This document shows, in pieces, positions 4,717 to 64,000 of a stretch of DNA of 64,000 nucleotides (the stretch's first letter is position 1; every line of letters begins with the position of its first letter). This DNA is from Cephalotus follicularis (taxonomy: Eukaryota; Streptophyta; Magnoliopsida; Oxalidales; Cephalotaceae). The notes beneath the pieces are model-generated. The model searched no databases, was not told the origin of the DNA, and saw only the letters and a program-made list of their open reading frames with translations. The position numbers and the translations under genes were made by a program. The DNA lies in assembly GCA_001972305.1 (NCBI GenBank), contig BDDD01000429.1:289314-353313 (forward strand), in the 5' to 3' direction.

Positions 4717-7163
4717 TGTAACACCCCACGCCCGTAGAACGGACACCTGGCATTACTCTCAATCCAAAATACAATACAGCGGTCGGGACTAACAATATAA
4801 AAATGCGAAAAACTTAAAACTTTTCAAAACATATCATATGCGGAAGATACAGTACAAATATTCATTCATGCGATACAATACGGTACAGTACCAGTCATTA
4901 AAATATAACACTTATTTAGTTACAATACTATGTCATTCATTTCATTTCGATACGTTTCCATACAACAGTAGTCTTTAGTCTCATCGGTACAATCTATAAG
5001 ACGGCTCTGTCACATCCCAATGATCATGCGGTCGCACCGAAACTTCTATCCTTCTGTCCGCTGTTACCTGCTGCCCTACCTATGCCGCATATAAAAGTAC
5101 AACACAGCGCCACCTCGAGGGATGGGTTTAGCCATAAGGCTAAGCAGAAACCCCATGCAGCATGTATGCATGTACAATGTGCAATATTGGTGACAGTTTA
5201 TGCAATATAAATGTGCAGTGTACAATATCAATGCATGATATGGCAAATGCATGAATACAATTGCTGATCTACTATCCATATGTCACTGGTCCATAACAGA
5301 GCATATGGATAGGATCTATAACAATCGATCAAGGGCAGACACTCAGTGGTGGTGCATCAAACACCCAATCAATCAATCATATTCTATAGAGCATGCGAAC
5401 TCGGTCAGTACAGTGTCAATCTCACGGAAGGTAGTCCTTAAAAAAGGGTGGGAGATCTACCCATTTGTCTCAAACTGATCAGGTTTGAAACTCGTAGGTC
5501 TTCCAGCCTGCGGCTGGGTCAATACAGTATCGATGAGATACAACCATGGGGGAGCTACTATACAGTTAGGGAACTACGACCCTTCGAGAGCATCAATCGT
5601 CAATCAGTAACGGTACTGCTCGTCATCAGATCAATACAATAAATGACGCGATCGACGAAATAGGTGGAAAAAGTCGACAACCTAACATGCCGATGCGGGT
5701 CATAAGGTCACTCTATAGGATCTATATAATACAATCAATCAATCTGTTTGTACAATACCAATAGGTGGTGATGTCAAATGGAGAAATGGGAATGAGCATC
5801 CAACGTTCTAAACTTAGACTCGCAACACTTATGGCTCAATCAATCAATCAGTAGTCAATAGATGGTGACAATCAAATCAACGAGATGGAAATGAATGTCT
5901 ATCCTGTTGATGAAAGTCACTGGATCGTCGCCTATGTCTCGCTCCGTCACTCTATCAATTTATCAATCCAATCTTTGAAAACCGTAGAAAACTGTGTTTC
6001 AAACGCTTGAATACCTCAAGTGAGGCTCCGGTCAAGTGGCAATGTGAAAGGGAATTGAAAACCAGCTTTAAAACAGTTAAAATTTTATTTTGCACTGTAG
6101 GCGTCGATGTCTTTGGCGAAAGGCATCGATGCATTTCAGGCAATTCTTTAAAATTATAGAAGGACATTGATGTCTTTCTCTATTTGAATAGAGATCTGGC
6201 TTAAAGACGTCGATATCTTTGGGAAAAGGTGTCGACGAGTTTTATTAAAAAGTAACCTGTAAATGCGCATCGATGTTCGGCATCGATGTCTTCATCAAAA
6301 AGGAGAAGTCCTAGGCAAAGACGTCGATATCTTTGAAAGACATCGATGTCTTTGCTGCAGAAAACAAGGATGCGGCATTTCAAGCAAAAGACATTGATGT
6401 TCATGGGCTAGGGATCGATGTCTTTGCTGGGCAGGGTCCATTTTATGCAGAAAAATAGCCAAATCTTAAGTCAAAAACCCATTAAAACCCATTCTTTGAA
6501 AACCAAGTGTTAAAAAAAATCATTCAAGGTTAGTAAAACAAGTTACAACCTTCAATTTACAATTTCTATCATTCTCTATATCAATTTGGTCAATGATTAA
6601 ATAAAAACCCGAAAACCTACAATTCACCCAACACATTCATTCAATCATAAATTTCAATAAATCAATCAATACAAATTATAGGTAATTCAAGTAAGAAGTC
6701 CTACCTATAACCGTAGCTTTAACAGTTGAGTAGCGATCGATCCAAGGCCAAAAATTCCCAAGAACTCACTCTTTTCTTGTTCAATTAGTATGCTTATCAC
6801 TTGCAAATGCTATCCTTGTTGATGGAGGAAGCCAAATCCGGAGCTGCTATGGAGATTACTCAGCTAGGGAGAGAGGAGAAGTGTAGAGAGAGAGGAAGAT
6901 GGAGTGAAATGAGAGAAAAAAGGTGAGGAATTGACTTATATAGTCAATTCACTATCTCTCCGATACTCAGTCCAAAAATCCCGACTATACATGCACACGT
7001 TCCATACCATAACCGATATGTACATATTTATTTCATGTCGGTACAATACAATACGGTCCAGTACAAGTCAATACAGTACAATTTAGTTCAATACAATTCA
7101 ATACGGTATGATACAGTACAAGGTATGCATGAACAGTACAAAAAGGGAATTCGGGTCGTCACA
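4717..7163 (-). repeat. 5' LTR of the Tekay-like element
   Basis: The 2,447-bp LTR has TGTAACACC at one edge and GTCGTCACA at the other (TG...CA). It carries two motif zones: GAGCTAC/AGTTAGGG repeats near 5400-5650, and GACGTCGATGTCTTT repeats at about 6095-6430. A second copy of the family stands alone at 10814-13261, about 90% identical by eye. A GA-rich tract near 6850-6910 is common to LTRs of this group. Confidence 0.88.
6095..6430. repeat. GTCGAT/GTCGAC motif cluster in a gypsy LTR
   Basis: About a dozen copies of degenerate GACGTCGATGTCTTTG with irregular 10-40 bp spacing. The homologous cluster in the solo LTR is at 12205-12560. Confidence 0.85.
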
Positions 7164-9283
7164 ACAATACATATATAGATATATATCTCTATGCCAATAG
7201 GTGCAACCATGCCAAGTGGATACAACCATCAATCCATCAATCATGTATCAAACGACCAATCAAGCCAATCAACTGTACGAAGAGCGCCGCCATCTCTTGG
7301 CCCCGACGTCGTACTCTTACTCCGGCCCCCGACTCCCAGGTCACGAAGCAAGGCAATCAATCAAAGGTTGTAAGCACTCTGTGTTCAGCAACCATGGTAA
7401 CCCGTGTTACGTGCACTCTGTGTTTAGTAAGATTGTATTTGGGCGTCCTTAGCCATCTTCTGGCACCTAGGAGAACATCCAGCCACCAGTCATCGGCGAT
7501 ACTTCGTCACCCCGGCTAGTACAGCATCAATCACAATCAATAAGTCAATCTCAAATCAATTCTTTTCCAAGTAATTTATAATTTATAAAATAGTTGAAAT
7601 AGTACATTTACTCAAAATGTAATCAGTCCTTGAAATCACATTTCAATCCTTCAAAAATATACATTTAACAAATATACATTTCCGTGTAAATTAATAATTA
7701 ATTTCAAAATCATGTATGCACTTCTAAAATGATAAAACACTTTAGAAAATCATTCACATTCAATTGACAATTCAATCCATATCAATTATGCAAGCAAACA
7801 TATGCTCAAATGCAAAACAGACCCTTTTGGCGTCAACGTGTTTAGTCTGGGTGTCAACGCGTATATCAGTCTTCTTAGGTGTCAACGTATAACTTATGCG
7901 TCAACGCGCATAGCAATCCTCCTGGGCGTCAACGGGTAACCTAGGCGTTAACGTGTATAATAAACCTCTAAGCATCAGTTCTTCAATCCTTTGCGTCGAC
8001 GCTCTAAGGTAGGAACCTTAGGCGTCAACGTCTACCTCCTTTTGGCGTTGACGCTATAAGGTAGCAACCTTAAGCACCAGTGCCTTATCTCTAGGCGTCA
8101 ACATCACCTCATGGCGTCGAAGCTTAAAACGTCTTCTTCCTTGCATCTCCAACCAAGGCGGCAACGTCTTTTCCTTTAGGTGTCGACGTCTATCAAACCA
8201 GAACAAAATCACAACGCACCAATGTATCAAACCAGTAGGAATCATGCATACAACACATGCAAATCAATCCATTTTCACTCCAAGTCATACCATGCATACA
8301 GGTTGTGGCAACCTCAACATGCACAGTCACAATCCAACATTCATGCATTTCACCAAATGGACATCCACTATTTTTGAACTCAAAATACAAGTATATATTT
8401 CCTACCTTGGATCTCAAGTTAGGAATCGAAGTCCACCTCTTTGAGTTCCACCGACCAGTAGCTTCGCGCTCCTTGGTCCGGTACAGCAGCTCCAAGTTTG
8501 AGCTCCCAACTCTCAAGCTTCCAAGCTCTTGCACCAGTTCAACAATGGAGGAAATGTCCCTCCCTTCCATGTTCCTCTCCTATTTTCTATTTGTCTTTCT
8601 CTCTATTTCTCTCTATCAGATGCTGGTCGAAGAAAGAGAAAAGAGAGTGTTTTATGGAGGAGTTTCTCTCTCTCCTCTCACCCGCTTTCATGGTGCCTAG
8701 CGCCTCTCTCCTTCTTTTTCTCTGCCATTGTAGGTATGCCATTATCCCTTCTTTCCTTTCTCTCTGCCATTTCAACGTATGGGAAAGAGATAAAGTGTCT
8801 TACACTTCTTTTTCACGTGCCTTATGCCAGCTTTTTGTCTTATTCTACCGACAGTTTTAGGCATTGACGTTCACGATGCGCGTCGACGCGTTGACTCTCT
8901 TCCTTGGGGCTAACAGGTTCCGTGAACCACGTTAATGCCGACTCCTTTAGTTGTCAGTCAGTAGGCATCGACGTCACCATTTGGCGTCGACGTCTCAAGG
9001 CAAGGAGCCTTAAGTGCCCCCTTTTTCCCTTGGAGTTGACTCTACTTCATGGCATCGACGCTTTAAAGCCTGAAGCCTTAAGCGTAGTGTTCATTCTTTG
9101 GCATTGACGCCATCTCTTGGCGTCGATGCTCATCGCCCTTCTTCTTGCATTTCCAATCCATGCAACATTCTCAACATTCTCAACTCAAAATCCAAAATTA
9201 TAGGTTGGAAAAATCCACCATTCTCATTAATTCATGACAATTTACATTGAGAATTACAACAGTACATTAACAGAATGTCCGAT
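7164..9283 (-). repeat. Older gypsy-type LTR fragment
   Basis: This stretch has no gene. It resembles, in the same orientation, the LTR at 33105-35562 (shared phrase CATGCCAAGTGG followed by ATACAACCATC-like repeats). It carries a dense motif cluster GGCGTCAACG at 7828-8190 and GGCGTCGACGTC at 8862-9130. A pyrimidine-rich stretch with GA-rich complement lies at 8580-8790. The Tekay element at 1-7163 cuts its left side. Short reading frames here are random. Confidence 0.6.
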
Positions 9284-10813
9284 CATCACAGAAAGTAAGT
9301 TCAGGGCGTAACTTGCACATTTTACCAAAGTTCATGATGCAAATTGCACCTTTTACCCAAAAGAAAAAAGCTAGGTCATTAGTATTTGTTTCAAAGGTTG
9401 TCCATTTGTGTTTCTCACGTCAGCGTACGTTTTGCACGTCAGCAACCATTAGTCATTTCGTTAGCGTAAGGTGTTAATGGCATGATTTTTAAGAGTTCGA
9501 TCCCTTTGTAGCACCGAAAGCAAGCTTAGGGTACTACTTACACATTTTACCAAAGTTCGGGGTGTACATTTTTTATTTTTTAGTTTATTTAATATTATTT
9601 ATATTGTATATTCTCTTTATGTAAGTTATACTCTACAAACTCTATAAATAAAGATGCTAAACAAAGTTCGGGCCGATCACACCTGCACTAGAAGTCACAT
9701 GGGGTCAACTCTAAAAGGTTCAAACAAACAAGCAAGAAAGACTACAAGCAAACTTATACCATACAACAATTACATATGCATAACTATCTATGAAGAAATC
9801 AAACTTTTATGGCGAGGATCGATCCATGATGGATTTGCATTAAATCCATGAAAAAATCGCATTTTGAAAGCCAAATTCAAGCTCAGAAGCATCCTTGAAG
9901 AAAACCATTTAGAGGAAAACCTTTAAACTTTTAAAAAGATCCATTTTGAAAATATAAAGGAAAGACATTGACACTTTCAGAGAAAACGTCGACCTCAAAT
10001 TGCCATGCTACAAGTCTGTGAGCTACAGATTTAAAGACATCAATGCATTTTTGAGAAAACTTTGACATTTTTTAGCACATAGCTCACAGTATTCATTTTA
10101 AGGTCAGCATTTTCTCTGAAAAGCGTCAATGTCTTTCCTCTATATTTTCAAAATGGATCGTTTTAAAAGTTTAAAGGTTTTCCTCTAAATGGTTTTCTTC
10201 CAGGATGCTTCGAAGCCTAAATATCGCTTTCAAAATGCGATTTTTACGTGGTTTTAATGCAAATACATCATGTATCGATCCTCGACATAAAAGTTTGATT
10301 TCTTCATAGATAGTTATGCATATGTAATTATTGTATGGTATAAGATTGCTTGTAGTCTTTCTTTCTTACTTGTTTGTTTGTTTGAATCTTTTAGAGTTAA
10401 CCTTCTAGTTCAGGTGTGGTCCGCCCGAACTTTGTTCAACATCTTTATTTATGGAGTTTGTAGAGTATAACATACATAAAGAGAATATACAATATAAATA
10501 GTACTAAATAAACATCAAAATAAAAAATTTACACCCCGAACTTTGGTGAAATGTGCAAGTTATATCCTAAGCTTGCTTTTGGTGCTATCAAGGGATCGAA
10601 CTCATAAAAATCATGCCATTAACACCTTACGCTAACGAAATGACTAATGGTTGCTGACGTGCCAAACGTATGCTAACGTGGAAAACACAAATGGACAACT
10701 TTTGAAACAAATACTAATGACCTGACTTTTTCTTTTGGGTAAAAGGTACAATTTGCATCCTGAACTTTGGTAAAATGTGCAAGTTGCGTCCTAAACGTAC
10801 TTTTGATGTAACC
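9284..10813. mobile_element. Long foldback (inverted-repeat) element, Mutator-like or MITE-like
   Basis: The left arm (about 9284-10030) is the reverse complement of the right arm (about 10075-10813), roughly 90% identical with small indels, around a short centre. Outer ends read AACTTGCACATTTTACCAAAG, a type of terminus common in plant non-autonomous Mutator-like elements. No transposase frame is visible. Each arm contains further terminal-like copies (CCAAAGTTCGGGGTG near 9552), so the structure looks nested. A transcript would form a hairpin with arms of about 700 bp. Confidence 0.75.
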
Positions 10814-13261
10814 TGTAAGACCCCGCGCCCGCAGAACAGACACGTGACATTACTCTCAATCCAAAATACAATACAGTGGTCGGGACTAGCAATATAAAAA
10901 TGCGAAAAAACTTAAAACTTTTCAAAACATGTCATATGCGGAAGATACAGTACAAATATTCATTCATGCGATACAAAACGGTACAGTACCAATCATTATA
11001 ATACAACACTTATTCAGTTACAATACTATGTCAGTCATTTCATTTCGATAGATTTCCATACAACACTAGTCTTCAGTCTCATTGGTACAATCTGTAAGAC
11101 GGCTCTGTCACATCCCAACGATCATGCGGTCGCACCAAAACTTCAATCCTTCTGTCCGTTGCTACCTGTTGCCCTACCTATGCCGCACATAAAAGTACAA
11201 CACAGCGCCACCCCGAGGGATAGGGTTAGCCACAAGGCTAAGCAGACATGCAGCATGTATGTATGTACAATGTGCAATATCGGTGACAGTTTATGCAATA
11301 TAAATGTGCAGTGTGCAATATCAATGCATGATATGGCAAATGCATGAATACAATTGGCGATCTACTATCCGTATGTCACTGGCCCATAACAGAGCATATG
11401 GATAGGATCTATAACAATCAATCAAGGGCAAACACTCAGTGGTGGTGTATCAAACACCCAATCAATCAATCATATCCTATAGAGCATGCGACCTCAGTCA
11501 GTACAGTGTCAATCAGTAGCAATGATCAATCCCACGGAAGGTAGTCCTTCAAAAAGGGTGGGAGATCTACCCATTTGTCTCAAACTGATCAGGTTTGGAA
11601 CTTATAGGTCTTCCAGCCTACGGTTGGGTCAATACAGTATTGATGAGCTACAACCATGGGGAGCTACTATACCGTTAGGGAGCTACGACCCTCCGGGAGC
11701 ATCAATCGTCAATCAGTAACAGTACTGCTCGTTAGCAGATCAATACAATAAATGACACAATCGACAAAATAGGTGGACAAAGTCGACAACCTAACATGCT
11801 GATGTGGGTAATAAGGTCAATCTATATGATCCGTACAATACAATCAATCAATCTGTCAGTACAATGCCGATAAGTGGTGATGTCTAATGGAGAAATGGGA
11901 ATGAGAGTCCAACGTTTCAAACTTAGACTCACAACACTTATGGCTTAATCAATCAATCAATCAATCAGTAGCCAATAGACGATGACAATCGAATCAACGA
12001 GATAGAAAGGAATGTCTATTCGGTTGATGAAAGTCACTAGATCGTCGCCTATGGCACATTTCGTTACTCTATCAATTTATCAATCCAATCTTTGAAAACT
12101 GTAGAAAACTGTGTTTCAAATGCTTGAATACCTTAAGTGAGGCTCCGGTCAAGCGGGAATGTGAAAAGGAGTTGAAAACTAGCTTTAAAACAGTTGAAAG
12201 TTTCATTCAGCCTGATAGGCGTCGATGTCCTTGGCCAAAGACATCGATGTGTATAAGGGTATTCCCTTAAAACGGTGGAAGGACATCAACGTCTTTGAAA
12301 TACATCGATATCTTTCTCTATTTGTATAGAGATCTGGTCGAAGGACATCGATGTCTTTGAACAAAGGCGTCGACGCGATTCAATAAAAGTAGCCTGGGAA
12401 TACGCATCAATGTTCTGCATCGATGTCTTTCCTGGGGAGAAGAGATCTCAAGGCAAAGACGTCGATGTCTTTGAAAGACATCGATGTCTTTGCTGCGGAA
12501 TCAAGGATACAGCATTCTAAAGCGAAAGACATCGACGTCCATGGGCTGGGGTCGATGTCTTTGCTGGCCATGGTCAATTTTTGTGCAGAAAAAGTGGCCA
12601 ATCTCAAGTCAAAATCCAATTTAAAGCCATTCTTTGAAAACTAAGGGTTAAAATCAATCATTTAAGGTTAGTAAAACTTGTTACAACCTTCTAATTTTAA
12701 TTTAATCCTTCTAGATCAGTTAGATCGAGGATATCAATAAAAACCCTAGTTTTTCAATTCTATACAATACCATCATTCAATCAATCATGCAATTAAGCAA
12801 TAGGCAATACAAGTAAAGAAGTCCTACCAATAACCAAAGCTTCAACAGTTGAGCTTCCAGTCAATTAATCGGCTGAAAACCCCCAAGAATCAGCTGCTAT
12901 GTTGTTCACTTCGCAAGAAAGAGGCTTGCAATCGTTATGTGCTGTTGGAGCAGCAAATCTGGAGCTGCAAGAGGGAGAGGGAGGTTGCCGGCTGGGAGAG
13001 TGAGAGGGAGAAGGATAGAGAGAGGGAGAAGAATGAGAATATGAGAGAATGAGAGTAAGAATTGACTTATATAGTCAATTCGGTCAATTCTCCGAAACTC
13101 AGCCCAAAATCCCGACTATAAATGCATACAATCAATACAATAACAATAGGTATAGGAATACCTCATATCAATACAGTGCAATACGGTTCAATACAATTTA
13201 GTACAGTACAATACGGTACAATATATGCATGAACAGTAAAAAGGGAATTCGGGTCGTTACA
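10814..13261 (-). repeat. Solo LTR, same family as 4717-7163
   Basis: The sequence runs from TGTAAGACCCCGCG to GGGTCGTTACA and follows 4717-7163 along its whole 2,448 bp, with scattered substitutions. No internal gypsy sequence adjoins either side. The flanks are TAACC and TAATC, a 5-bp target duplication with one change. Flanking foldback-related sequence reads continuously across the insertion. LTR-LTR recombination is the usual origin of such solos. Confidence 0.85.
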
Positions 13262-14661: not shown

Positions 14662-15018
14662 CTAAAGATTTTGACTATCCCAGTATTTCTTCTCCCATAA
14701 CTCCACTTCTTTTGTGGAATTTGCTTTTCTGCTGAGGATGTCATAAAGAGATGAAACAGCAAATGGAGGAGGGATCGTGCATGGGCCTGTGTCTGCAGGA
14801 CCTTTCACCATGGATTCCATCATAAATTTCTTCACTAGTCCGTCCGCTGGGCAACCCATTTTCTCGGAACACATGGCAGTAACATTTTCAGGTATGGTAG
14901 GCTTAAATGTCAAGAGCTTAGCATAATCAGTCAAGAGATGCAACATGTAGTCATACACATAATCCATTTTCAAATCCCTCAGAATGAATTCACTCCCTGC
15001 TTTTCCCATAGCCTGAGC
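14662..15018 (-). CDS. GT90 exon 6: C-terminal region and stop
   Basis: 118 codons and a stop. Starts AQAMGKAGSEFILRDLKMDYVYDYMLHLL, continues YAKLLTFKP and a cysteine-containing segment (MCSEKMGCP), and ends ELWEKKYWDSQNL. The acceptor is TTTACTAG|GCT, after a compact 155-bp intron 5. The cysteines fit a lumenal, disulfide-bonded domain. Confidence 0.87.
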   Translation of the reverse strand, partial: AQAMGKAGSEFILRDLKMDYVYDYMLHLLTDYAKLLTFKPTIPENVTAMCSEKMGCPADGLVKKFMMESMVKGPADTGPCTIPPPFAVSSLYDILSRKANSTKEVELWEKKYWDSQNL

Positions 15019-18000
15019 CTAGTAAAGGTATTGGGAACAACCAAATAAGATACTTTAAAATAAATTCAATCCAAAATTTACGTCACTTAATGTTAATGAC
15101 AAATTTTAATAGAAATTTTTTGGGTCATTATATCCTTATTATTAGCTTGACAAGCCTAAACTCATGATTCTACCTTTTGCTCATTGCGATTGCCCCAGTC
15201 AACTGCAAACTTTAAAGATTTGCACTTGTCATCTTGTTTAATGGGCCAATAGTGGTGCATTGGCACCAAACCTCTACTAAAAAAATCATAATAACGGGGT
15301 TTCACTAGTAAGGTAAGTGAATCACATGCAAGAATGTATTTTTCACTGACAGACCATCCAATCCCTTCGATGTATATCTTAAACCTGCATGAATTGGGCA
15401 TTTGGAAGCAACATAGATAAATTAATGACATGGATAATAGAACATGAAAGAGTAACGAGTAATAAAGAGAAGAGAACCCTACAACTTGTATCAGTAATTT
15501 TAATTTGTTGTTCCAAAATTTGAAAGTTTTTGCACTTTCAATTTCACGTCTCTTTCAACATTTTGTTAGGGTGCCATTGAAATAGGAGTCAAATCGACGT
15601 CATCTTAAAAATAGAGACGACAAATTAAATTTTTTTAATATCAGACAACAAATTGAGATCACTAATATAATTGATAGATGAAAATAAAATTTTCCTTCTG
15701 TTAATAACACCCAATCGACGTATTGGATATGATGTAGTTTCATTATATAATACTCACTAAGTAATAAGAAAATCAAACGCAAAAAAGCACATTAATTAAT
15801 CAGAATAAAAATTATAAATAATATATTTTCAATAAAATTACAAAATAAATTTTTATTTTGTAAAACATAAATAACACAAAATAAAAAATCACATTAAAGA
15901 AGATAGTGAACAGTGATGGATTGTTATATGTATAATTGATAGTAGAAGTTGCCACTTTTATATCTTAATTTTTTTGTTGTCACTAGTACAATGTATGTAA
16001 TATAGGATATTCATTGACTATCTCTCTCTTTTAAATGCATGCTAGAAATGTCTGTAAGGAAAGCGAAGGGTTGGCTTGACTCAATCGATGAGAGCTTCAA
16101 CCGAGAAAAATCTTGTTTCAGATAGCGGCTAACCTATCATTATCTAATCATTCAAGTCGATCAAGCCAGGTAGAATAAGTTGCTTAAATGAACTTCACTT
16201 GTGTTTATTTATATTTTTTATTACGTTCATTATTTATTTGTTTACACCAAGAAAGAATACAAAGCAATGGTGTCTATGATTATTTTAGTTTACTTAAAAG
16301 CTCTTTATAATCTATCCACGAATAAGATAAGATTAGAGGTGGATTGAGTGATTAAACAACACTCGGCTACAGGCCAGAAGGAACTGCCTTTAAATATTAA
16401 TCATCATTAACAATCTGAGAAGCTATTTTTATTATCACAGACCCTAAAATATCTGAAGATATTCTTATTTCCTTTATTTCTCTCCTTTCCCAACTCCTAG
16501 TGCTACAAATGTTCAACTCCATACTGACATTATTGGATATGAGTATTACAAAGTAGGTCTTTGATTGTTCGTTCCAAATTTCAATATGTTCGAGCAACAA
16601 AGTACCTCTAAAAAATTGTTTTCATATTCTTTTATTCAACTTTTGCACTTTCAAATAAATTGAGTAGTTTTTCTAATAAAATTATTTCTATTTATTAAAA
16701 AAACTCACATTGTCTATTATATAATTGAGGTATGTTGATTATAATTTGAAATTTTCATTTAGTTGTTATTTTTAAACTTCAATTTTACTAACCTTTTATA
16801 GATTTTACTATTAATTATTGAGTATAAAATTCGTATACAACAACATTTAATACTAGTAGTTCTACCTATGAAAATTTTCATTTTTGCCCTCCAATTTATT
16901 ATATGAATAAATTCATATTTAAAAAGTTTTAATTTGGCGTCTATAGTTTCAAATCGGTGTCATTTTAGCTTTTATTTTAACGACTCTCCTGATAGGATAC
17001 TGGAAAATACACAAAATTGAATCAAATCTAAACTATAATCGCTAAATTAAACCTTTTAAAATTAAAACGCCAAAGTAAACCTAAAAAAACTACGATAAGA
17101 AAAAAACAAAAAAAAAATATCAGAATTTAACCCATACGCGAGCAAGCAAAGAAAGCAAAGCTAAGAAGTATAATTTTAGAATTTTACGTACCTATGACTG
17201 CATTGGCTTGCCATGTCTGAATTCTTGTAGCCTTCGTGAGTTTCTTTGGGCCAGTCCTACAATTGATGTTCTAGGCATTATAACTATTGGGACATGTATG
17301 TCACACATGGTGTAACAAGGTGTTGTCATTTTCAAGGTTATGAGCTAGGGCAACTCAATCACTAGTAAGACTGTTATGATAAATTGACTCATCTAATAAT
17401 AATCAATGAAATAAGATATGTAAGCGGAATAAAAATAAATGGAACATAAGAATTTAACGTGGATAAGTTTCGATGTGAAACATACGTCCACGGACGAAGA
17501 AAGATCAAATTTTAATATCATAAATATTGGGATTACAAAGACGTGTGAATAATAAACAAATCAACAAATTCTCTAATACACCAAATATGTGATGAAAAAT
17601 ATAGCATTAACTATATACCCAAATCTTAGAGAAAATTGCAAGAAGTCAAACTGCTAAAAGAATCGCTAATGCCTTGCTCTTCCTTGTTTTTGCATATATG
17701 TCGCTTGATTTTAGAGACCAAACATATATATATATATGTTGGATTTCGATTTAGTTAATTATTGGGCTTTTGGCTTGGTAATTAGAAGTCAGCTCAACAA
17801 ATCTTCACATTGATTTGTAATTCCTCAAGAACAAATATAACAAAAATTTCTCCCTCTTTTTCACGATCCTCATACGGGTCAAACTCAAACACAAGAAATA
17901 CTAACCAAGTCTGAGCAATACTCAAACTTGGAAATAGTAAGAGGCTTTGTTAACAAATCAGCTGGATTATTTGCAGTACCAATTTTCTTAATAAGAATTT

Positions 18001-31849: not shown

Positions 31850-31850
31850 G

Positions 31851-31894
31851 CCATAAAACCTTGATAACCACTGGTTCATTCTACTCTCGCTCAT
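31851..31894 (-). pseudogene. Fragment of a second GT90 gene: first 44 nt of exon 1
   Basis: The minus strand reads ATG, then codons for MSESRMNQWLSRFY before breaking off against the repeat at 31849. It matches exon 1 of the intact gene (one residue changed, S7N) and continues upstream into the duplicated 5' region. Only the start survives; the rest of this copy is absent from the window. This was a tandem or segmental duplicate of the gene, later truncated. Confidence 0.8.
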
Positions 31895-33085: not shown

Positions 33086-33087
33086 AT

Positions 33088-33100: not shown

Positions 33101-33104
33101 GTTA

Positions 33105-46172: not shown

Positions 46173-46644
46173 ATAAAATGTTAGATAAATTCAAACATCT
46201 TAGGTTTAAAGAAGCAAACACTCCATTTTATCCTAATATTAAATTAAAATACAATACTGGAAGAATAGTGGCACAACTTGAGTATGCTAGTGCTATAGGA
46301 TCTTTAATGTATGCAATGCATTGTACAAGACTCGATATATCTTAATCCATGTGTATGTTGAGTAGATACACTAGTAATCAAAGTATAGAACATTGGAATG
46401 CTATTACTATAATTTTTTGTTATATTAAGAAAACCAAGAATTTGGGATTGTTTTATTGTGAGCATCCAAGTGTATTAAAAGGTTACACCGATTCTAGTTG
46501 GAATACTAATGTGGAAGATAATCAATCTACCTCTGGTAGGGTGATTAGCTTAGTCGATGGAGCTGTTTCTTGGGTGAGAAAGAAACAAACATGTATAAAT
46601 CACTCAACTATAGAATATGAATTTATTGCCTTAGTGGCATGTAC
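46173..46644 (+). pseudogene. Copia RT end/RNase H fragment, first copy
   Basis: Plus-strand phrases include FKEANTPFYPNIKL, QLEYASAIGSLMYAMHCTRLD, YTSNQSIEHW, KKTKNLGLFY and SVLKGYTDSSW..NVEDNQSTSG, then GAVSW and KKQTCI. These are the C-terminal end of copia reverse transcriptase and the RNase H. It stops where another LTR (TGTCAGAACTTG) begins at 46645. Broken fossil. Confidence 0.85.
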
Positions 46645-51808: not shown

Positions 51809-52196
51809 TAATTTTTTGTTATCTTAAGAAAACCAAGAATTTGGGATTGTTTTATTGTGAGCATCCAAGTGTATTAAAAGGTTACACCGATTCTAGTTGG
51901 ATTACTAATGTGGAAGATAATCAATCTACCTCTGGTAGGGTGTTTAGCTTAGTCGATGGAGCTGTTTCTTGGGTGAGTAAGAAACAAACATGTATAATTC
52001 ACTCAACTATAGAATATGAATTTATTGCCTTAGTGGCATGTACTGTCAGACCTTGTATCCGTAGGGGTACGAGACAGTACTCAAATCCGTTCAATCACTT
52101 AGGTCGGGTATGAGTAAGCCTATCTTGTATAATGAAAATCCATACAAATTCAAAACTTTAATAATAATGTACGTAATCCATTAAAAAACATCTTAA
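51809..52196 (+). repeat. Third, 388-bp partial copy with RNase H segment
   Basis: Repeats 51421-51808 with a few substitutions, in tandem with no gap. Contains NLGLFYCEHPSVLKGYTDSSW and KKQTCI..STIEYEF of copia RNase H. Its right side continues into the full LTR, so it marks the original position of the sequence. Confidence 0.85.
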
Positions 52197-53910
52197 ACAT
52201 TAAATCATGTAAGATCCTTACATATCATGTTCATACCATATCCTTACAATTCAATACAATCACAAATTATCTTATACCATCGTTCATTACAACATAAACA
52301 GTACATAAAACAATGAGGTGCTTAAGCCATCAGCATCCTTGCATGTATCAATCTGTGCCATCACTAGTCCTCATGTCTATGACCACTGCCACAAGGTCCG
52401 ACTTCATCTATCCCTAAACACGTATAGATGCCCCATCCCGAAGGATGGGTTGGCCTAAAGGCCTTGTAGAAACACAACCCCTATGCTGATTATATGAACA
52501 TGTATAGCATATATCAATGCATGACGTGGCATAATGTGTGAACAATTGTGGTTGACGAATCCATATATAAAACCATCTCATGCAGGCTTACATATAGACT
52601 GTTAACCTAAAAATACACTCCTATGCATCTGTCTATCAAACAATCCAAGAGTTAATTAAATCATATATACACTATCCCATATATATATATATATATATAT
52701 ATATAAGCGGTTAACTAAAAAATCCTTCATCTGTAAGTCCAACCTGGCAAAAGCTCGATGTTAAGAATATCTAGTTGCCAAACGGTAGTACCGTTAAGAG
52801 ATCAACTAGAACTAGTTGCCAATCAGTAGTACCGACAAGAGCTCAACTAGTTACATATCCATGCAATTCATACCATAGCATATCATGACATACCATCCTT
52901 TATTGTGAGTCTAGAACTACCACCCAAAAGTGGCACGTGCTCGAGTTTAGACATCTAGTGCCTACCAATAGTATCATTAGGAGCTCACCAGACCCAATTG
53001 CCTATTGGTAGTACCGCAAGGAGCTCAATCGGTCACCATGTCCATCTATTCGTACATGAGTATAACACTCCCGAAGGTAGTACATAGCACTAGGGTTATA
53101 CCTCGAGTTTCCTATAGGTAGTACCGATAGGAGCTCGACTAGAAATTGGTTGCGTATAGGTAGTACCGCTAGAAGCTCAACCAACCATGTTCTATGAAAA
53201 CTTTATAGACTTTACCTTACCCTTACCCTTGCCATAATCATCTTGAAAACCTGAGGAAGAAACCCAGTTTCACTGTATACGGGCCTAGAAAAGGTCCCGG
53301 TAGAAAAGCATTTAGAAAAAGTGCTTTAAAAACATTTGCAAAAAAACTGACAGACAAAGCGACAACGCCTTGGTCTTAAGCAGCGACGCTTAACGCCTAA
53401 GCGTCGTCAGTTAAGTCCTAAGCGTCTATGCTTTGACTAGGCGTTGGAAGAATGGAAAAGCTCCTTTGGTTTGGAATCAAATTCCTTTTGAATACCTGAT
53501 CTAAGTGGCGACGCTTAATCTCGCAGAACCTAAGGTTCTACTTACAAATCTTTGCAAATCCAATTATTTTCTTTAAACCACTTCAATCCCAGTTCAAAGC
53601 AAGTTCTACTAGTCAAATCTATGCTATTAAAATCATTTTCAATCCATCAAATCATTCCATTTCAATTCTTGGTTTAAAACCCCAAATATCACCTTTTAAC
53701 CGTAACATTCCATTCCATTCCATTTCAATTCAATTCATGCAATCAATTCATATATGTGTATACATGTGTAAACCATATCATATTTAGGTAGAGAAGGTTT
53801 CTACCTAAGATTGGAGCTTGTTCTTGGCCTCTAGGATCAGAGATCGGAGAAAGGGCTCCAGTTCTTGATTTATGGTGCTCCAATCTTGTCCCAATCAAGT
53901 CCTCAATCAA
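52044..53910 (-). repeat. Gypsy-type LTR inserted within copia RNase H
   Basis: Starts TGTCAGACCTTG at the plus-strand left edge; the right edge is near 53910 and is not exact. Contains GGTAGTACCG..AGGAGCTCAACT repeats at 52770-53190 and GCGACGCTTAA/GCGTCGTCAG repeats at 53355-53515. A (TA)n run is at 52681-52706. The copia RNase H resumes on its right, so it split that gene. Confidence 0.6.
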
Positions 53911-55544: not shown

Positions 55545-58052
55545 TGTTGGGAACAAAGTCTCTAGGCACAACGGAAGAAATAATCAATTATGGGCATTAG
55601 GTGTATAGGGTGATCAATTTTAATTATCAATCAAATGATTGATCCATAAGCAATGGGATACCCTAACCAATGTCCACAATTATCCCAATTTTTGTTCAAG
55701 CAACCCTAATTGAGCATCTAACCAAACCAATTAATCCATCCAAGCATTGGGGAGAAACGGGTTTGGAGTAAGAGTTGCCAGTAACCCTTATTTTGATTGC
55801 AAGCAATTGCATTAGGGTAACACATACAAACCCTAGCAATTCGAACCCACAAACCCGAACCAAGGCAATCCCTAACCCTAAGGGTTTGCAAAGGTTAACT
55901 CCAAAAAAAGGGTTTGGCTAAGGTTGACAAACCCTAGCCACAACCTGAAATTACATGCTATATACCATAAAATGCAATTCAACACAAGACAAAGAAATAC
56001 ACATATTTATTCATCTTGGGCATAGCCCCAATCTGAATCCAGAAAGAAGAAAACAAGAAATTGATTTCCTAAAAGTGATGGCTCCTTCCTTCAAGAGCAC
56101 CCTCATCACTTTAATACCAAAACTCCAAGAATCTCCAAGCTCCTCCTTAAGCCACGGATAAGGAAGAAGATGATGGAGTACTAAAACTCTATAGATAAAG
56201 ATAAGATGCAAGGAACAAATTATCTCCACCTATAATGAACTTTGAGGGGTGAAAGGATGGTTGAAAATGGCTTATTCTTCATCCAGCAGTTATTGGCGTC
56301 AACGCCTAAAGAAGGATGAGACCAGAAGAAGAAAGAGAGAGCACGACCTTTTAGAGAGAGAAAGATGAAAAGTAAAAGTGTGTTTTTATGATGTAAGACC
56401 TCTTGTCTTTTAAACATCATGTATTATTTTTGTCCTCTCTCATTAAATGCTCAAAGTCAACTCTTTGGCTTGTTGAGCACACTTCCCATTTCTCACCAAC
56501 TTCCCATAAGCTGGCCATGTGCCGTGTATCAGCCCATCATGGCGTCAACGCCATTTTTCTCTTCCTATCATGGTGTCAAAGCCAAAGATATGATGAGACG
56601 AGCTTTGTCTCTTCCAATAATGGCGTCAACGTATGCTCTTCATGGCGTTGACGCCTACGATAAAGGATGAGATAATCTCTTCCTTTCATGGTGTTTACAC
56701 ATGCTCTTCATGGTGTCAACGCCTAAGATAAGATGAGACACTCTCTTTTAACATTTCAACCCTCTGCTTGGAGATTTCATCATGGCAATGCATGGACCTA
56801 TATCCAGCAAATGAAATAATCACTAGTAAAGTAACATCTCCTTGATGTTATCCTTTCACTAAATGACATGTGTCCCTCACATGTCAACCTGTTCAAAGTC
56901 AGACGGGACCCGGAAAGCCCGGTCATTATCCGGTATGCTGATAAATTTCTCAGAATATCCCTAGTTCTGGTACAACCATCCTAATAGTCCTATCAACTAT
57001 TCACAAGATGGCCCTAGTATGAGCTTTCATCACCCTCGGATTTGTGTATTACCATGTGTATCAGTCGTTATCCAGATAGCCAGTGCTTTAAGCCCTTCTT
57101 TGGCATATGTGTCATGTGTCCCTCATCACTATCGGCTCCGATGACTGACTAGGGTGTGGATTAAATGTCCACCCTAGAAATACCACGACCTTATAAATAT
57201 GTGAACACATTGTGACTTTGGCGGACCTCCTTGGAATCACCCGATATCCAGTCTGCCTAAGCCTAACCAGGTCTTTCAATCAAAAATTGTCAAGATCATA
57301 TAGAGCCATTCATCCATCATTACGGGTGTGACGATTCCATATTGTGCAGTCAACCCACATGACCCAAATACAACCATTTTGCCAGCACGTGGTTAGTGCT
57401 GGGGAAGGTGAAAATCAAAGTCATGCAGTCACTGCACAACGCATGCCAGCCACTCAGGTCTAAAGATACAATGTAAGAGAAGACCTACTAGTCACCATAG
57501 ACTATACACCACCAAAGACAATAGGGATCCTATTGATAAGGGTAATGTCCATCCAGATAGGTCACCTATGGTGGGTCGGTTTAGTATCATGCTCCTGCAT
57601 GTACCCTGCATCAGCTTTAGTGCCATCCAAACGGTATTGAGAGAAGCTATCTTCCATACGAGGGAGAAAGCATAATACGGCAAGTATTTGTTGTTCATCA
57701 ATTGGGCAGAAAGCAAACCTATGACTTGTAACTTCTGTTTGAAGTGACTAAGGATCTCATTCTTATTACCTCTCTAGGTATGAGATCCAACCTCTCGATG
57801 ACAGGGCGCTTGATGTGTACTCAGTTGACATTGTGATCAACTGATCCACTTTTGATGGTTTGGGATATTACATATAGCCAGTTTGCCATTGTGAATATAT
57901 ATGCACAATTGAACATAACTAGAACATAGAATGTAGGATAAGAGTGTAAAGTACATACATGCAGCCAACCATAGGCTTGCATGGATTATTTCAATCAAAT
58001 GTGTACACCCATTACGCCCCTTCTTGGCTTGTAAGGACACCTAACTCCAACA
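55545..58052. repeat. Solo LTR, 2,508 bp, with TTAAG target duplication
   Basis: Starts TGTTGGGAACAAAG and ends CTAACTCCAACA. Flanked exactly by TTAAG at 55540-55544 and 58053-58057. The ends are not repeated internally and no coding region is inside, so it is a solo LTR, probably copia-type. Carries ATGGCGTCAACGCC repeats (56287-56725). The two clean ends and perfect duplication suggest it is one of the younger insertions. Confidence 0.8.
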
Positions 58053-58730: not shown

Positions 58731-60159
58731 TGTAATAACCGCAATTTTCAATTAATGTATATTACACATGATGAATAAAATATGCATTATATTGAGATTT
58801 AATGTCCAATTACTTTATAAATTGGGGTTATTGAATTGCTGGGTTTGATCTGAATTGCAAATGTGGTGAAATACACTTAACAAACCAAAATCAGCCTCAA
58901 ACAGCCGACTGTCACAAGGTGACAGTCGACTGTTTTGATTCAGGGAGTGACAGTCGACTGTCACAGGGCAACAGTCGACTGGTATGGCTCAGACAGGTGT
59001 CTGTGCATGGCGTGAAACAGGGCAGGGCAGATGGTGACAAGTGTTCTAAACGTGCCATGCAAGACTAATTCGTGTCACTAGCTACCTCAACATGCAAGGG
59101 TGGTGTCTTGCACGTGCTTTGCAGACCTGCAAACCTGCAAAGCAAAAATTGAAAAGAGTAAGAATAGGTGCATGTGAGAGAGAGAAGAGGAAAAGTTGAA
59201 AACAAGAGTTAATGACTGAAACGAGATTGGGAACACGATTTCCCATATAACAGAGGCTACATGAGTGATTCAGAGTTAGAGACAATGAGTAAGCGCGGGA
59301 TCTTGCTGGTGATTCTGGACCTTACTTGTTAGAGCTTGCATGTTGAAGTTGGGAGGTTCAAAGTGTCAAAGCTTGATTCTTCCTGGTAAGCTTCCCATTC
59401 TGGATTGGTGTTAACGTATAGTTAAACAGTAGTATATGGCCACTGTTTTCGTTCTATAAACCTACTGTTAACATGACTCCATAGAAAGGATTGTAAGGAA
59501 ATGGTTAAAAGTGGAAGTAGAAGCTTAGGAGATTATGATAAGCTACGGATTGATATACGGTTATTATCATTTTTAGATAACAAATACACTTACTGGGTTT
59601 GATGCATATTCCTACAAACATACAACCATATAGATTAACTGCTGAGATTGGAAGATTGTTGGAGTAAAAGAGCTTTGGACACTAAAGAGAGAAATCAACT
59701 CAATTTGATTTCGGGATAGCAATTCAGGTAGGGGTATTGACATGTTTTAGAAGATATGATATGTATAGCATGTCTGGATAATATCTCTATGATTGCGTGT
59801 TATTATTTTGGTTTGAATTGGAAGTTGAACATGCATACTCTGTTTTGGTTAAACTACTGCCTAACATTTCTGGACAAAAACAGCCGACTGTTTAACCTAA
59901 CAGTCTACTGCTCAATGTCAACAGCCGATTATTAAGGACAAACAGTCGACTGCTTAATGAAAACAGCCGGCTATTCTTTTGAACAGCCGACTGTTAAGTG
60001 ACCAATTATTGATATTAGTTGCTGCTTAGGCTTAAGTGATATGTAATTACCCTGGCCTCCACATAGGATGATTGTAACATTTAATCCTGGCCATAGGTAG
60101 TTATATTTCAAATATTGAACTACTTATGCATCCATTGTATTAATTGCGTAAGAACGACT
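58731..60159 (+). repeat. Gypsy-type LTR with CAGTCGACTG clusters
   Basis: Starts TGTAATAACCGCAATTTTC, the same family start as the minus-strand LTR at 33105-35562. CAGTCGACTG-type repeats lie at 58903-58985 and 59880-59998. It is cut at 60160 by the copia element and its end is outside the window. Confidence 0.6.
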
Positions 60160-60622
60160 GAAGGTAAAGTATGGCAACCTTTAACTAATAACTTTGTATG
60201 CGGAAAGTACAAATTAAGCAATGAACATAAACAAGCACACAAGACAAATAAATAAAGAGATAAGGGATAGAGAGTGCAAACGAATTTATAGTGGTTCGGA
60301 GGTTGAACTTAAAAGGCGTCGATGTCTTATGAAAGGGATCGACCTCTTTCGTACGGACGTCGACTTCTTTACATGTATGGATCGATGTCTTTTCAAGAAT
60401 TTGTCCTGTAACTTTGGGCATCAAAAGACGTCGACTTGTTTCCTATAGGGATCGACTTCTTTTGTACGGACGTCGACTTCTTCTCTGGAAGATCAATGTC
60501 TTTTGTCTTGCAGAAGATTTTTGCTTTGACAGCAAACTTTCTAATGTCTTGCACATTAAACAAACAAGTTAAATGCATTTTTGTAATCATTAAAACTCAG
60601 GATTGAGATTAAAATCCCAACA
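60160..60622 (-). repeat. 3' LTR of the gag-only copia element
   Basis: Starts TGAAGGTAAAGTATGGC, ends AAATCCCAACA. Shares its first 140 bp with 62852 onward and its last part with 63742 onward. Contains GACGTCGACTTCTTT-type repeats at 60315-60500. Confidence 0.8.
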
Positions 60623-61134
60623 ATCTCCCCCTATTTGATGATTACAAAAATTTGCTTCATTATGAAAAATATGTGACATTTCAAAGCAAAAAGATTTTCT
60701 TTTAGCATAAAAACTTTAAATATTCTCCCCCTAAATATGATATCTAACTCAAACTCAACAATCTCCCCTTCTTACCACATTTTCATCATTAATATCACAT
60801 TTCACATCTATCTCCCCTTTAATATCTATATCTCCCCCTTTAGCATAGGCTATCAATAAATTTTTCATGAACATAAGCATTCTCCCCCTTTTTGTTAGCA
60901 TCAAAAAGACTATATCAAAAGATACCAATTAACAAACAAATCTTAGAGGGATACCAATAGAATAAAGCAATATTAAAAATTTTGAGAGATACCAATTGTT
61001 GGATAACATGATATCAAAAAGAGTTTGGAAGAAGCATCAATAATATCAAAACCTCCCCCTCAATAAAAGCTTTCTCACCCATATTTATGTACTTTGAACA
61101 ATTTGAAACTCCAAGTACACCTACAAAACAAGAT

Positions 61135-62817
61135 TTAAGTTCTTGGTACCCATTTGAATTTGGGTCCTTGCAAGTTAGTCACAAACATTCCTTTCGGAAC
61201 CCAAACCTTTCTAGTCTTACCATAGCAAATATCATTTCTGACAATACAAGAGGTAGAAACATGTCCTAATCTACCACAATAATTGCAAACAATTTTGTGC
61301 TCATTTTTCTTGACAAAGAAATTTTTAAAATGCTTGGCATTTTTCAATTCTTCAAAGCCAAGACCGGCTTTGTCAAAAACACATCTTTGTAATCCTAGAA
61401 GATTATCCAATTTAGCACTACTATTTGAAAATGTAGAAAAGGATTTCTTTAAAGCATCAACTTCAATTTTCAATTTTTCATTTTCTTCCATAAAATCGTT
61501 TGACAATTTTGAAGAAATATTTAAAACGTCAATCTCATTCAAATAGAAGCTATTTTTATCCTTTAAAGATTCAATTTCATTTAAAAGCTTGCTATTCTCA
61601 TTTTTTAAATCATCAATTTCTTTGGACATAAAAGAAACATTTTTCTTTAAATTCTTATTTTTCAAACTAACATTCTCATATTCAATATATAATTTTTCAT
61701 ATGCATTTTGCAATTCATCAAATGAAAAATTTACCTCATTTTCTTCATCCTCAATTGCCATGTAGGCAATGTGTGCAACTTCTTCATCGCTTTCCTCTTC
61801 GGAGGTTGAGGGATCGCTATCCGATCATGTGGCTACCATTGCCTTCTTCTTCTTGAAGTATTCTTTCTTTTTCTTGAATGGTTCTTTCTTGTTGAGATTT
61901 GGACACTCGTTTTTGTAGTGGCTGGGCTTGTTGCATTCGTAGCATGTAGGTTCATCCCCTTTGCTTGTTTCTTCATCTTGAGGGAAATTCTTTTTCAACG
62001 TCTTTCTCCCTTTTTGGTTTTTGAGAAACCTTTTAAATTGGGAGGTGATGAGAGCAACGTCTCCATCTTCATCACTTTCGCTATCTTCTTTTGAAACTTT
62101 AAAAGCAATTGCCTTCTTCTTCTTGACATCCACATTCTCATGATTCTTCATTGTTGTCTCATGTGTCATCAAGGAACCTAGAATTTGTTCGAGTGGGAGA
62201 GTGGAAAGGTCCTTGGCCTCCTCGATTGTCGTCACCTTTGGAGTCCAACTCTTCGGCAAGCATCTCAAGATTTTTCTAACAAGTTCTTGGTTAGAATATG
62301 ATTTGCCAAGATTCTTAAGAGAGTTTATAATAGTAGTAAATCGAGAAAACATATCACTAATACATTCATTATCATGCATCACAAATAATTCATACTCATG
62401 TACTAGCATGCTAATTTTCGATTCCTTTACTTGATTAGTGCCTTCGTAAGTGACTTCTAACAAATCCCACATTTGTTTGGCCGAACCACAAGATGATATG
62501 CGATTAAATTCATTAGGGCCAACGGCTCAAAATAAAACATGTTTGGCATTAGAATTTAATTGGAGCATCCTAAAGTCATTGTCATTGTATTCATTCTCGG
62601 GTTTAGGAGAAACTACTCCATCTATAGTTCTAGTGGGCATCCTAGGACCATTTACAATTATATGCCACAATTCATAGTCAAGGGATTGTAAAAATATAGT
62701 CATCCTAGTCTTCCAAAAACTATAGTTGATTCCATCAAAAAATGGAGGTCTAGTAATGGAGGATCCTTCTAATCCTATGTTCATATGGTTTGCCATGGAT
62801 CTTTGTATCTCTAACAA
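61135..62817 (-). pseudogene. Copia gag remnant with two zinc knuckles and a coiled coil
   Basis: The N-terminal block has PPFFDGINYSFWKTRM and YELWHIIVNGP, typical of plant copia gag. The middle block has MWDLLEVTYEG, LVHEYELFVM, MFSRFTTIINSLKNLGK and CLPKSW, then a CCHC knuckle CYECNKPSHYKNECP and a lysine-rich tail. The last block is a long heptad-like coiled coil rich in K, E and N, followed by a second knuckle CNYCGRLGHVSTSC and KVWVPKG. This two-knuckle, coiled-coil layout is usual in SIRE/Maximus-type gag. The blocks are separated by breaks. Confidence 0.85.
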
Positions 62818-62835: not shown

Positions 62836-62849
62836 CCGCTCTGATACCA
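62836..62849 (-). other. Primer-binding site for initiator tRNA-Met
   Basis: On the minus strand TGGTATCAGAGCGG lies 2 bp inside the 5' LTR edge, a near-perfect tRNA-Met match. Confidence 0.85.
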
Positions 62850-62851
62850 AC

Positions 62852-64000
62852 TGAAGGTAAAGTATGGCAACCTTTAACTAATAACTTTGTATGCGAAAAG
62901 TACAAATTAAGCAATGAACATAAACAAGCACACAAGACAAATAAATAAAGAGATAAGGGATAGAGAGTGCAAACGAATTTATAGTGGTTCGGCAAATCCG
63001 TGCCTACGTCCACTTTCTCAAGAACCCCTTGAGATTCCACTAGCTACCACTAGCAACCTTTGATTTTTGGCTTCCGGGTGCAAATCAAACAAACCACCTT
63101 ACAAATGATTTCAGCTTACGGGTGCAAATCAATCAAACCACCTTACACTTGATTTTGGGTTCCGGGTGCAAATCAACAAACACCTTACAAGGGTTCACTC
63201 CCCTCTTTTACAATGAATGAATTGTAAAGATAAAATGTGTTTACAAATAACCTCTCACAGGTTGGATATAAAAGTGTAAATAGTTTGCAAGCTTTGGGTA
63301 TGAAAGTGTTTAGCAAAAGCTTGATATTCTTCTCTTTGTAGATATGCAAGTTGAGCTTTTGTGATTGAATGTTCAAAATGTTGTTCCCTTAGTCACTGAG
63401 CTTTGTTTCTTGACCTCTATTTATAGCTTTCTTCAGTTTATAGCCGTTGTAGAAGTCTTGGGCATGTTGGATATAACATTTTGTTAATGCAGCTTTGTTT
63501 AAGTTTTTGCTGACAGAAAGACATCGATGTCTTTCAAAAAGGCGTCGATGTCTTTTGTGATTTTCCCGTTGAAAATGCAGCAACTAGTCGTTCCATGTTT
63601 CCCGGGTCTTGTCCATTTAAAAAGACGTCGATGTCTTTTTAAAGGCGTCGATGTCATTTCTGGGAAATCTCCAGGCATTTGAGTGTATGAAGATCACGTC
63701 GACTTCTTCTTTCTAGGTCGATGTCTTTTCTGGTTTTGGCAGGTTGAACTTAAAAGGCGTCGATGTCTTATGAAAGGGATCGACCTCTTTCGTACGGACG
63801 TCGACTTCTTTACATGTATGGATCGATGTCTTTTCCAGAATTTGTCCTGTAACTTTGGGCATCAAAAGACGTCGACTTCTTTCCTATAGGGATCGACTTC
63901 TTTTGTACGGACATCGACTTCTTCTCTGGAAGATCAATGTCTTTTGTCCTGCAGAAGATTTTTGCTTTGACAGCCAACTTTCTAATGTCTTGCACATTAA
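62852..64000 (-). repeat. 5' LTR of the gag-only copia element, incomplete
   Basis: Starts TGAAGGTAAAGTATGGC and continues past base 64000. Includes three copies of a segment with GGGTGCAAATCAA (63075-63180) and motif clusters at 63515-63660 and 63700-63930. Confidence 0.75.

Follow-up and report, generated by a model that had tools for sequence, protein, structure and literature searches.

Clusters of a GTCGAC-centred palindrome in gypsy and copia long terminal repeats of Cephalotus follicularis: candidate operator arrays for a host protein

Palindromic, CpG-rich repeated motifs (RM boxes) were described in 2010 in the long terminal repeats (LTRs) of Sireviruses, whose other marks include multiple polypurine tracts and an AT/TG junction (Bousios, PMC2829016). 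Here we examine clusters of a comparable kind in 64,000 nucleotides of retrotransposon-rich DNA from Cephalotus follicularis (contig BDDD01000429.1, positions 289,314 to 353,313; the window). A preliminary description had placed sixteen such clusters, with a GTCGAC core, in LTRs of different lineages. We computed the extended motif, the concentration and spacing of the arrays, the independence of the two halves of the motif and, in one dialect of it, a rule of base choice. On this evidence we lean, with only a little more belief than doubt, towards reading the clusters as cis-regulatory operator arrays for a dimeric, host-encoded DNA-binding protein, recruited by several LTR lineages. All of the evidence comes from this one window, in which the gypsy or copia lineage is backed by protein domains for two elements, a Ty3/gypsy element (LTR1) and a Sirevirus-like copia element (E3).

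The GTCGAC core is strongly over-represented. Against 60 dinucleotide shuffles of the window, with LTR copies kept in, GTCGAC occurs 42 times where 5.2±2.2 are expected, the highest ratio among all 64 palindromic six-mers; GACGTC occurs 27 times (5.0 expected), and CGTCGA/TCGACG, the top six-mer by z-score, 71 times (7.7 expected). One of 15 control palindromes exceeded twice its expectation, GAGCTC (15 versus 7.0), which is likewise clustered. The densest 400-bp tile holds 10 sites of five cores, compared with a maximum of 5 in the 60 shuffles. When six cores were counted (GTCGAC, ATCGAC, GTCGAT, ATCGAT, GTCAAC and GTTGAC), 104 of 171 sites fell inside the 16 claimed clusters (3957 bp), and the 67 sites in the other 60043 bp amount to 1.12 per kb, near the shuffle rate of 1.05 per kb. 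Fifteen of the 16 clusters exceed chance by a Poisson count of these cores (p<0.01), a test that is post hoc because dense places had been chosen beforehand; the weakest are 59880-59998 (two sites, p=0.007), 35280-35390 and 58903-58985 (three sites each, p=1e-4 to 2.4e-4). The clustering is thus borne out except at 53355-53515, which holds none of the six cores, only degenerate look-alikes. The earlier remark that no more than a trace lies outside LTRs broadly holds for classed sequence: CGTCGA occurs 28 times in the six LTRs chosen as cluster-bearing (9.1 kb) and 3 times in the rest of the classed sequence (32.5 kb), with about 21 kb of the window unclassed in this count. Neither LTR of a copia element (17372-17801 and 21836-22293) contains a site.

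The common unit is longer than the core. When sites are aligned on TCGA their flanks are symmetrical, giving a palindrome with the half-site TCGA-YG[T/C][C/T]TTT and a consensus of about AAAGRCRTCGAYGYCTTT. The first outward position of 170 half-sites is C in 101, T in 64, A in 4 and G in 1; the next three positions are mostly G, either T or C, and either C or T, beyond which the sequence is T-rich. Flanks differ between families as dialects. The dialect AAAGACRTCGAYGTCTTT, below called the AAAGAC dialect, is used by both LTR1 copies (LTR1a, 6095-6430, nine core sites; LTR1b, 12205-12560, ten core sites; both on the minus strand), by the 3' and 5' LTRs of E3 (60315-60500, seven sites, and 63515-63930, 13 sites; both minus) and by two clusters denoted 41k (41221-41360, plus, five sites) and 47k (47128-47410, minus, nine sites). 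Other dialects are AAGCGTCGACGCTTAAG in F2A (29660-30122, plus, nine core sites), GGCGTCAACG / GCGTCGACGC in F2B (7828-8190, minus, ten sites), AAGCGTCGACAGTT in F3A (cluster F3A-2, 34358-34520, minus, six sites) and ACAGTCGACTGT in F3B (cluster F3B-1, 58903-58985, plus, three sites). The C-box (GACGTC) of bZIP factors and the W-box of WRKY factors, to which the motif had been likened, fit parts of this unit only, GACGTC being one flank dialect and GTCAAC one centre variant. A half-site model built with one family left out recognised the held-out family with an area under the curve of 0.86-1.00, and 55 of 80 held-out sites scored above 5 bits, compared with 1 of 150 control TCGAs.

The motif is shared between families, and the DNA around it is not. 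Eleven cluster-containing segments were searched against one another by BLAST, with and without the motif 18-mers masked. Unmasked, 12 pairs matched, of which nine were between families and three homologous (LTR1a/LTR1b, F2A/F2B and F3A/F3B); with the 18-mers masked all nine between-family matches vanished and the three homologous pairs still aligned. The gypsy LTR1b and the copia E3, for example, match unmasked with E=1.3e-8 and have nothing further in common by BLAST once masked. This agrees with the proposal that the clusters are element-borne and common to unrelated LTRs. Their assignment to different lineages draws on protein domains for LTR1 and E3, relies on LTR-start and G-tract sequence or on homology for F2A, F3A and F3B, and is unproven where 41221, 47128 and 56287 were called LTRs. 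As for the suggestion that the module arises or spreads repeatedly, repeated origin under a common pressure would fit better; a module passed physically from LTR to LTR lacks support, as no DNA beyond the motif is held in common, and transfer of a very short module may also have taken place. Outside plant DNA, a scan of IMG/VR with the 18-mer pattern returned seven contigs with one palindromic match each, which by our own estimate we take as chance (2-5 core sites in the densest 400 bp, versus up to about 10 here), and the gypsy pol and copia gag queries found no relative in that database.

Neighbouring units prefer one distance. Ten de-duplicated groups contain 45 neighbour gaps of at most 34 bp, of which 31 measure 19-22 bp and 8 measure 28-29 bp. 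Because the footprint of a site forces a minimum gap, packing was simulated with an 18-bp exclusion: nine clusters contain 28 gaps of 19-22 bp, versus 12.3±2.7 simulated and a maximum of 21 in 1000 runs. E3 alone supplies 8 of these 28, and one further gap (29 in total) comes from 35280-35390, outside the simulation. A jittered-site control with copies kept gave a mean of 7.1 and a largest value of 18, versus 41 observed neighbour gaps at 19-22 bp. We rely on neighbour gaps because the periodicity of all pair distances, again with copies kept, was mixed (z of 5.6 at 10 bp, 3.7 at 10.5, -0.2 at 20, 2.1 at 21 and 5.3 at 22). The natural reading of 19-22 bp is two helical turns.

Such spacing might also be expected of a neutral minisatellite, in which slippage would lengthen runs of roughly 20-bp units within a hypervariable part of the LTR and the motif would have no function. 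Tandem Repeats Finder does report repeats, for instance at 34467-34526 and 7853-7959, and length-variable 5' CpG islands have been described in LTRs of Del elements (PMC4029996). However, adjacent units resemble each other (similarity 0.60, n=29) no more than non-adjacent units within a cluster do (0.58, n=269), and recent tandem duplication therefore does not explain the spacing. On this comparison simple tandem duplication was rejected. The clusters are, as had been supposed, no ordinary microsatellites. The recurrence of the extended motif across unrelated LTRs also speaks against slippage, as do two comparisons of related copies. Between LTR1a and LTR1b the motifs are kept while the spacers change: identity is 84.7% in motifs (166 of 196 columns) and 73% in cluster spacers (103 of 141), a difference matched by 4 of 362 circular shifts. 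With a looser core over the whole of LTR1 the values were 0.856 and 0.837, with 416 of 1501 shifts as good, the signal being swamped by ATTGATTG repeats. In F3A and F3B, two distant clusters switch flank together. We judge a neutral minisatellite decidedly improbable.

The F3 pair deserves a closer description. Each copy has two clusters, 760-900 bp apart and in the same places, with a different flank in both. All eight half-sites of the four TCGA-centred sites in F3B read CTG, and those of F3A are mostly CGC, CGG, CAG or CAT; one of the four F3B sites lies in the second cluster, whose GCCGAC copies have, by eye, ACAG/CTGT flanks. Flank dialects thus changed together between related copies in this one pair, with few sites. 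A concerted difference of this sort, together with non-coding motif arrays and lineage dialects, recalls the C- and T-type motifs of VANDAL21 (PMC5735166) and would suit an element-encoded anti-silencing system like VANC, where each lineage's own protein binds its dialect and strips methylation. No candidate protein was found in 30 open reading frames scanned (a subset of those present, the elements being incomplete in the window), and 61138-61824, beside the E3 gag, gave coiled-coil matches below the cut-off only. The occurrence of one motif in gypsy and copia elements favours a host-side factor over an element-encoded binder, and we regard a VANC-like system as highly improbable.

Palindromes could also matter as RNA stems. 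One such explanation holds that LTR transcripts fold on the motifs and that the double-stranded RNA feeds silencing by small interfering RNA, as proposed for maize Sireviruses, where small RNAs are in excess over palindrome-rich LTR regions (PMC10760457, PMC5311732). LTR1a and F2A do fold far better than dinucleotide shuffles (z of -7.2 and -6.1), the latter with stem pairs such as GTTGACGCTTGAGG/CCTCAAAGCGTCAAC. However, when unit order was permuted 60 times in each of 12 clusters, the real order beat all permutations in just these two; it beat all but one in 47k and all but four in F2B, and in E3 and in the cluster 38k the permuted order folded as well or better in 58 and 59 of 60 cases. Folding is weak in some clusters, at about -20 kcal/mol per 110 nt in 34358-34520 and in 38k. 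In six of seven families, moreover, left and right halves match no better than between-site shuffles, 47k lying 2 s.d. above; that the halves vary independently argues against the palindromes mattering as stems. F2A may be an exception to order-independent folding, and we think the hairpin explanation unlikely for the arrays as a whole.

The CpG content of the clusters raises a further alternative, that the arrays are passive, CpG-rich remnants which escaped methylation decay in an unmethylated region. The observed/expected CpG ratio (o/e) is 0.70 in the window and above 1.1 in 13 of the 16 clusters, 53355 included, the others (56287, 58903 and 59880) having 0.68-0.93; G+C content is only 0.41-0.52. 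In 7 of the 15 clusters with sites the spacers (0.74-0.98) are somewhat over the window value, as this explanation would have it. But the spacer range as a whole, 0-0.98, lies far under the whole-cluster values, and CpG o/e inside the motifs reaches 1.65-2.67 in 12 clusters and 0.90-1.29 in 56k (56287-56725) and F3B. Base choice also speaks against decay. In the AAAGAC dialect the centre is CG 44 times, TG twice and CA twice, and the outer positions are CG 28 times, TG 41 times and CA once; among 43 distinct 18-mers the outer count is TG 36 to CA 1 (p=5.5e-10, an optimistic value because units of one family are related). Decay of methyl-CpG should yield TG and CA equally, so that the TG excess argues against passive decay in this dialect, though not in F2. 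The pooled outer tally is TG 40 to CA 6, half-sites ending GT or TT being left out. On the low spacer values and the TG-over-CA bias regional CpG decay was rejected, and we consider it the least credible of the explanations weighed here. The AAAGAC dialect points instead to a binder that would prefer a pyrimidine at the outer position and accept T and C (or methyl-C) alike.

We therefore return to operator arrays as the reading we prefer. The clusters would be cis-regulatory arrays of a palindromic operator with lineage-specific flank dialects, bound by a DNA-binding protein of the host or by a few related ones. Each site would take a homodimer, with a subunit on either half-site, and adjacent dimers, about two helical turns apart, would sit on the same face of the DNA and could cooperate. 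Unrelated gypsy and copia lineages would have gained such arrays since recruiting the protein would aid transcription or escape from silencing; of these effects we think activation of transcription likelier than anti-silencing. We infer the binding, the dimeric and host-encoded nature of the protein and the benefit to the element from the pattern of sites. Of the roles suggested earlier, a platform for binding, methylation or recombination, binding is the best supported, and this analysis gave no sign of recombination. A bolder version, in which gypsy and copia elements of one genome independently built arrays for the same host dimer, with two-turn spacing and concerted dialect switches, as a genome-wide transcription or anti-silencing platform that perhaps reads T as methyl-C, strikes us as possible but doubtful.

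Several points weigh against the operator reading. No known factor was matched to the motif. None of the four F3B sites scored above 5 bits in the leave-one-family-out model and the dialects differ, so two or more proteins may be involved; in that model the hold-outs of F3A/F3B and of F2/38k are not fully independent because they are homologous, the hold-out of LTR1 versus the copia-type clusters being fully independent. The high CpG of the motifs is partly built in, as four of the six cores contain CG. The base-choice rule is strong in the AAAGAC dialect only: outer positions in F2 are TG 5 and CA 4, and in 7 of the 18 F3A half-sites the second outer base is A. Among all sites of the window that reach the same score, the centre is CG 63 times, CA 13 times and TG 9 times, centre losses being typical of F2B and 56k, where GTCAAC forms are common. 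The motif identity between the LTR1 copies is on a par with that of the flanking LTR of the stretch (84.4%, 260 of 308) and not above it. An old tandem duplication followed by divergence could be the source of the spacing of about 21 bp. Position, finally, is uneven: one F3 cluster sits near the far end of its LTR, and both LTR1 copies have a TATA-like site (6942 and 13073) about 500 bp upstream of the cluster on the LTR strand, so that the LTR1 array may be transcribed.

The two domain-backed hosts are as follows. LTR1a (4717-7163, minus; TGTGACGACCC...GGTGTTACA) is the 5' LTR of a Ty3/gypsy element, recognised by its repeat, its ends, a primer-binding site and downstream pol, and is 82% identical to 10813-13261; the second family copy, LTR1b, recognised by its repeat and ends, occupies 10814-13261 (minus). 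The primer-binding site TGGTATCAGAGA (4702-4713, minus) has one mismatch to the consensus and lies 3 bp off the LTR end; its position is what counts, as the window holds 6 primer-binding-site matches where 4.1 are expected by chance. Pieces of gypsy pol (RT RNase H, RVT_1, integrase zinc-binding and Tf2-1-like SH3; 3-2806, minus) lie in separate stop-free reading frames, the RVT_1 match at 2393-2806 being under the Pfam cut-off, and probably belong to the LTR1a element, judging by their order and shared direction. LTR1a alone has another TATA-like site, about 370 bp downstream of its cluster. A 1.5-kb foldback (9292-10803), with arms about 90-92% complementary in ungapped pieces, directly adjoins LTR1b.

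E3 is classed as Sirevirus-like because of its multiple polypurine tracts and AT/TG junction. Its 3' LTR (60159-60622) is followed by clustered polypurine tracts AGGGGGAG (60623-61060), the last of them joined through AT to the LTR start TGTTGGG, by a copia-type gag (Retrotran_gag_2, 61828-62526), by an exact primer-binding site TGGTATCAGAGC (62838-62849) and by the 5' LTR, which runs off the window (62850-64000), all on the minus strand. A TATA-like CTATAAATAG at about 63425 in the 5' LTR lies 90 bp downstream of the cluster. Relative to the 5' LTR, the 3' LTR is short of about 748 bp (60299/60300 versus 62993-63740), a stretch that holds the TATA-like box and some of the array; by eye, the junction falls outside motifs.

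F2A (28206-30867, plus, far end provisional; start TGTAACGCCCC) was recognised by sequence and homology, and is homologous to 7164-8405 in inverted orientation; the flanks of the F2B cluster are homologous to it. A second cluster beside F2B (8862-9130, minus, seven sites) lies outside the part aligning with F2A. Two more palindromes, GAGTCGACTC at 28884 and 29024, lie in the 5' portion of F2A, with another flank dialect and outside the main cluster. F3A (34330-35562, minus, low end approximate) starts with TGTAATAACCG after GGGGGAATG and also carries F3A-1 (35280-35390, minus, three sites), in the same place as F3B-1. The diverged copy F3B (58731-60060, plus, far end approximate) carries, in the place of F3A-2, the weak cluster F3B-2 (59880-59998, plus), with two core sites, its other copies being GCCGAC. 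The LTR starts TGTAACGCC and TGTAATAACC near G-rich tracts in F2A and in F3A/F3B resemble gypsy LTR forms, and on these we judge the elements probably gypsy-type.

The remaining clusters have less certain hosts. Between the 38k cluster (38310-38450, plus, five sites) and an F2-like repeat (37064) there are 1246 bp; for the F2A cluster the corresponding distance, to the repeat at 28596, is 1064 bp. The host of 41k is unproven, as is the LTR-like segment 46801-47613 around 47k; 56k (no strand assigned) has six sites, mostly of the GTCAAC form, an unproven LTR host and no overall CpG richness. A possible LTR boundary at 30445-37334, the sole hit of an automatic search for TG..CA ends with a target site (here 4 bp), was set aside as the repeat begins inside another LTR. 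Two X-Y-X' arrangements without LTR ends span 30417-37412 (arms 30417-31849 and 35980-37412, 99.86% identical) and 42604-52199 (arms 42604-46800 and 47614-51811, 99.1%); they look like the product of recent local duplication or of two haplotypes joined in assembly. A 388-bp unit in tandem duplicate (51420-52196, 97.9% identical) ends the second X copy.

Elsewhere in the window, a glycosyltransferase family 90 gene lies in pieces at 14665-24589 (minus; Pfam matches at 14665-15018, 15165-15554 and 24059-24589), and between them, as if intronic, is the old copia element mentioned above (17372-22293, LTRs 82% identical). GCATGC (33 versus 11.1 expected) and CATGCA (101 versus 43.7), the core of the RY/B3 element, are also enriched across the whole window.

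If the operator reading holds genome-wide, a single host factor might drive or release numerous retrotransposon families together, which would explain co-ordinated bursts. Arrays of this kind would then extend beyond Sireviruses, and convergence, not descent, could supply regulatory modules to LTRs. The 18-bp motif would also offer a handle on what binds the Sirevirus motifs, a question that the 2010 account left open (PMC2829016).

Among known systems, the repeated motif through which CLSY3 CLSY4/REM recruits a chromatin pathway (PMC12270911) is a parallel in kind. It was rejected as the identity of the motif here: its repeats TTTTGCTTAT and AAGCGGAT with a 1-nt spacer are absent from the clusters by eye. 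The targets of VANC21 and VANC6 in VANDAL elements are, like the present clusters, arrays of short non-coding motifs that change together between related copies; they differ in belonging to DNA transposons, in a same-orientation motif, YAGTATTAY, and in having a known element-encoded binder (PMC5735166). Del gypsy LTRs likewise have CpG-rich, length-variable and poorly conserved stretches, and these may be the same feature at lower resolution. Their CpG islands are, however, reported as missing from the eudicot group, whereas the CpG here sits in a defined palindrome, and neither 'tandem' nor 'repeat motif' appears in the text of the study (PMC4029996). None of the top-ranked matches from the open-access literature, in the portions covered, reports a GTCGAC-type array in gypsy LTRs.

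Sireviruses come nearer. The maize palindromes CACCGGACNNNGTCCGGTG likewise form arrays in the LTR cis-region, with another core (PMC10760457, PMC5311732); a further difference is that folding in our clusters is mostly independent of unit order. RM boxes have a CGG-CCG core, where the arrays here have RTCGAY and half-sites TCGA-YG[T/C][C/T]; an RTCGAY centre occurs in 2 of the 13 listed RMs, Vitis CGGTCGACCG and Tnd-1 ACAATCGATTGT, and Tnd-1 too lacks CGG-CCG (PMC2829016). That account calls RMs Sirevirus-specific, with Ty1/copia as the comparison set, whereas the present motif occurs in a gypsy LTR too; the arrays here are common to families of one genome, and the spacing and half-site rule were not encountered in the portion of it considered. 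At least eight palindromic copies, as in RM boxes, are present in E3 (13), LTR1b and F2B (10 each) and LTR1a, F2A and 47k (9 each), the other clusters having fewer. RM arrays lie shortly upstream of the TATA box and form CpG islands (PMC2829016). In E3, which has the several polypurine tracts and the AT/TG junction of a Sirevirus carrier, the array is about 90 bp upstream of the TATA-like box; LTR1 is no such carrier, having gypsy pol, and its shared TATA-like site is on the other side of the array, about 500 bp away. As for islands, the 13 clusters here with CpG o/e over 1.1 go with a G+C content that does not exceed 0.52. We do not file the arrays as RM boxes because they lack the CGG-CCG core and because the described range of RM boxes does not include gypsy hosts. 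RM boxes are, all the same, the closest known kind: both are palindromic, CpG-rich and present in many copies per LTR, with diverged flanks and a sequence that varies by element (PMC2829016), and by this analogy the arrays described here may work like them.

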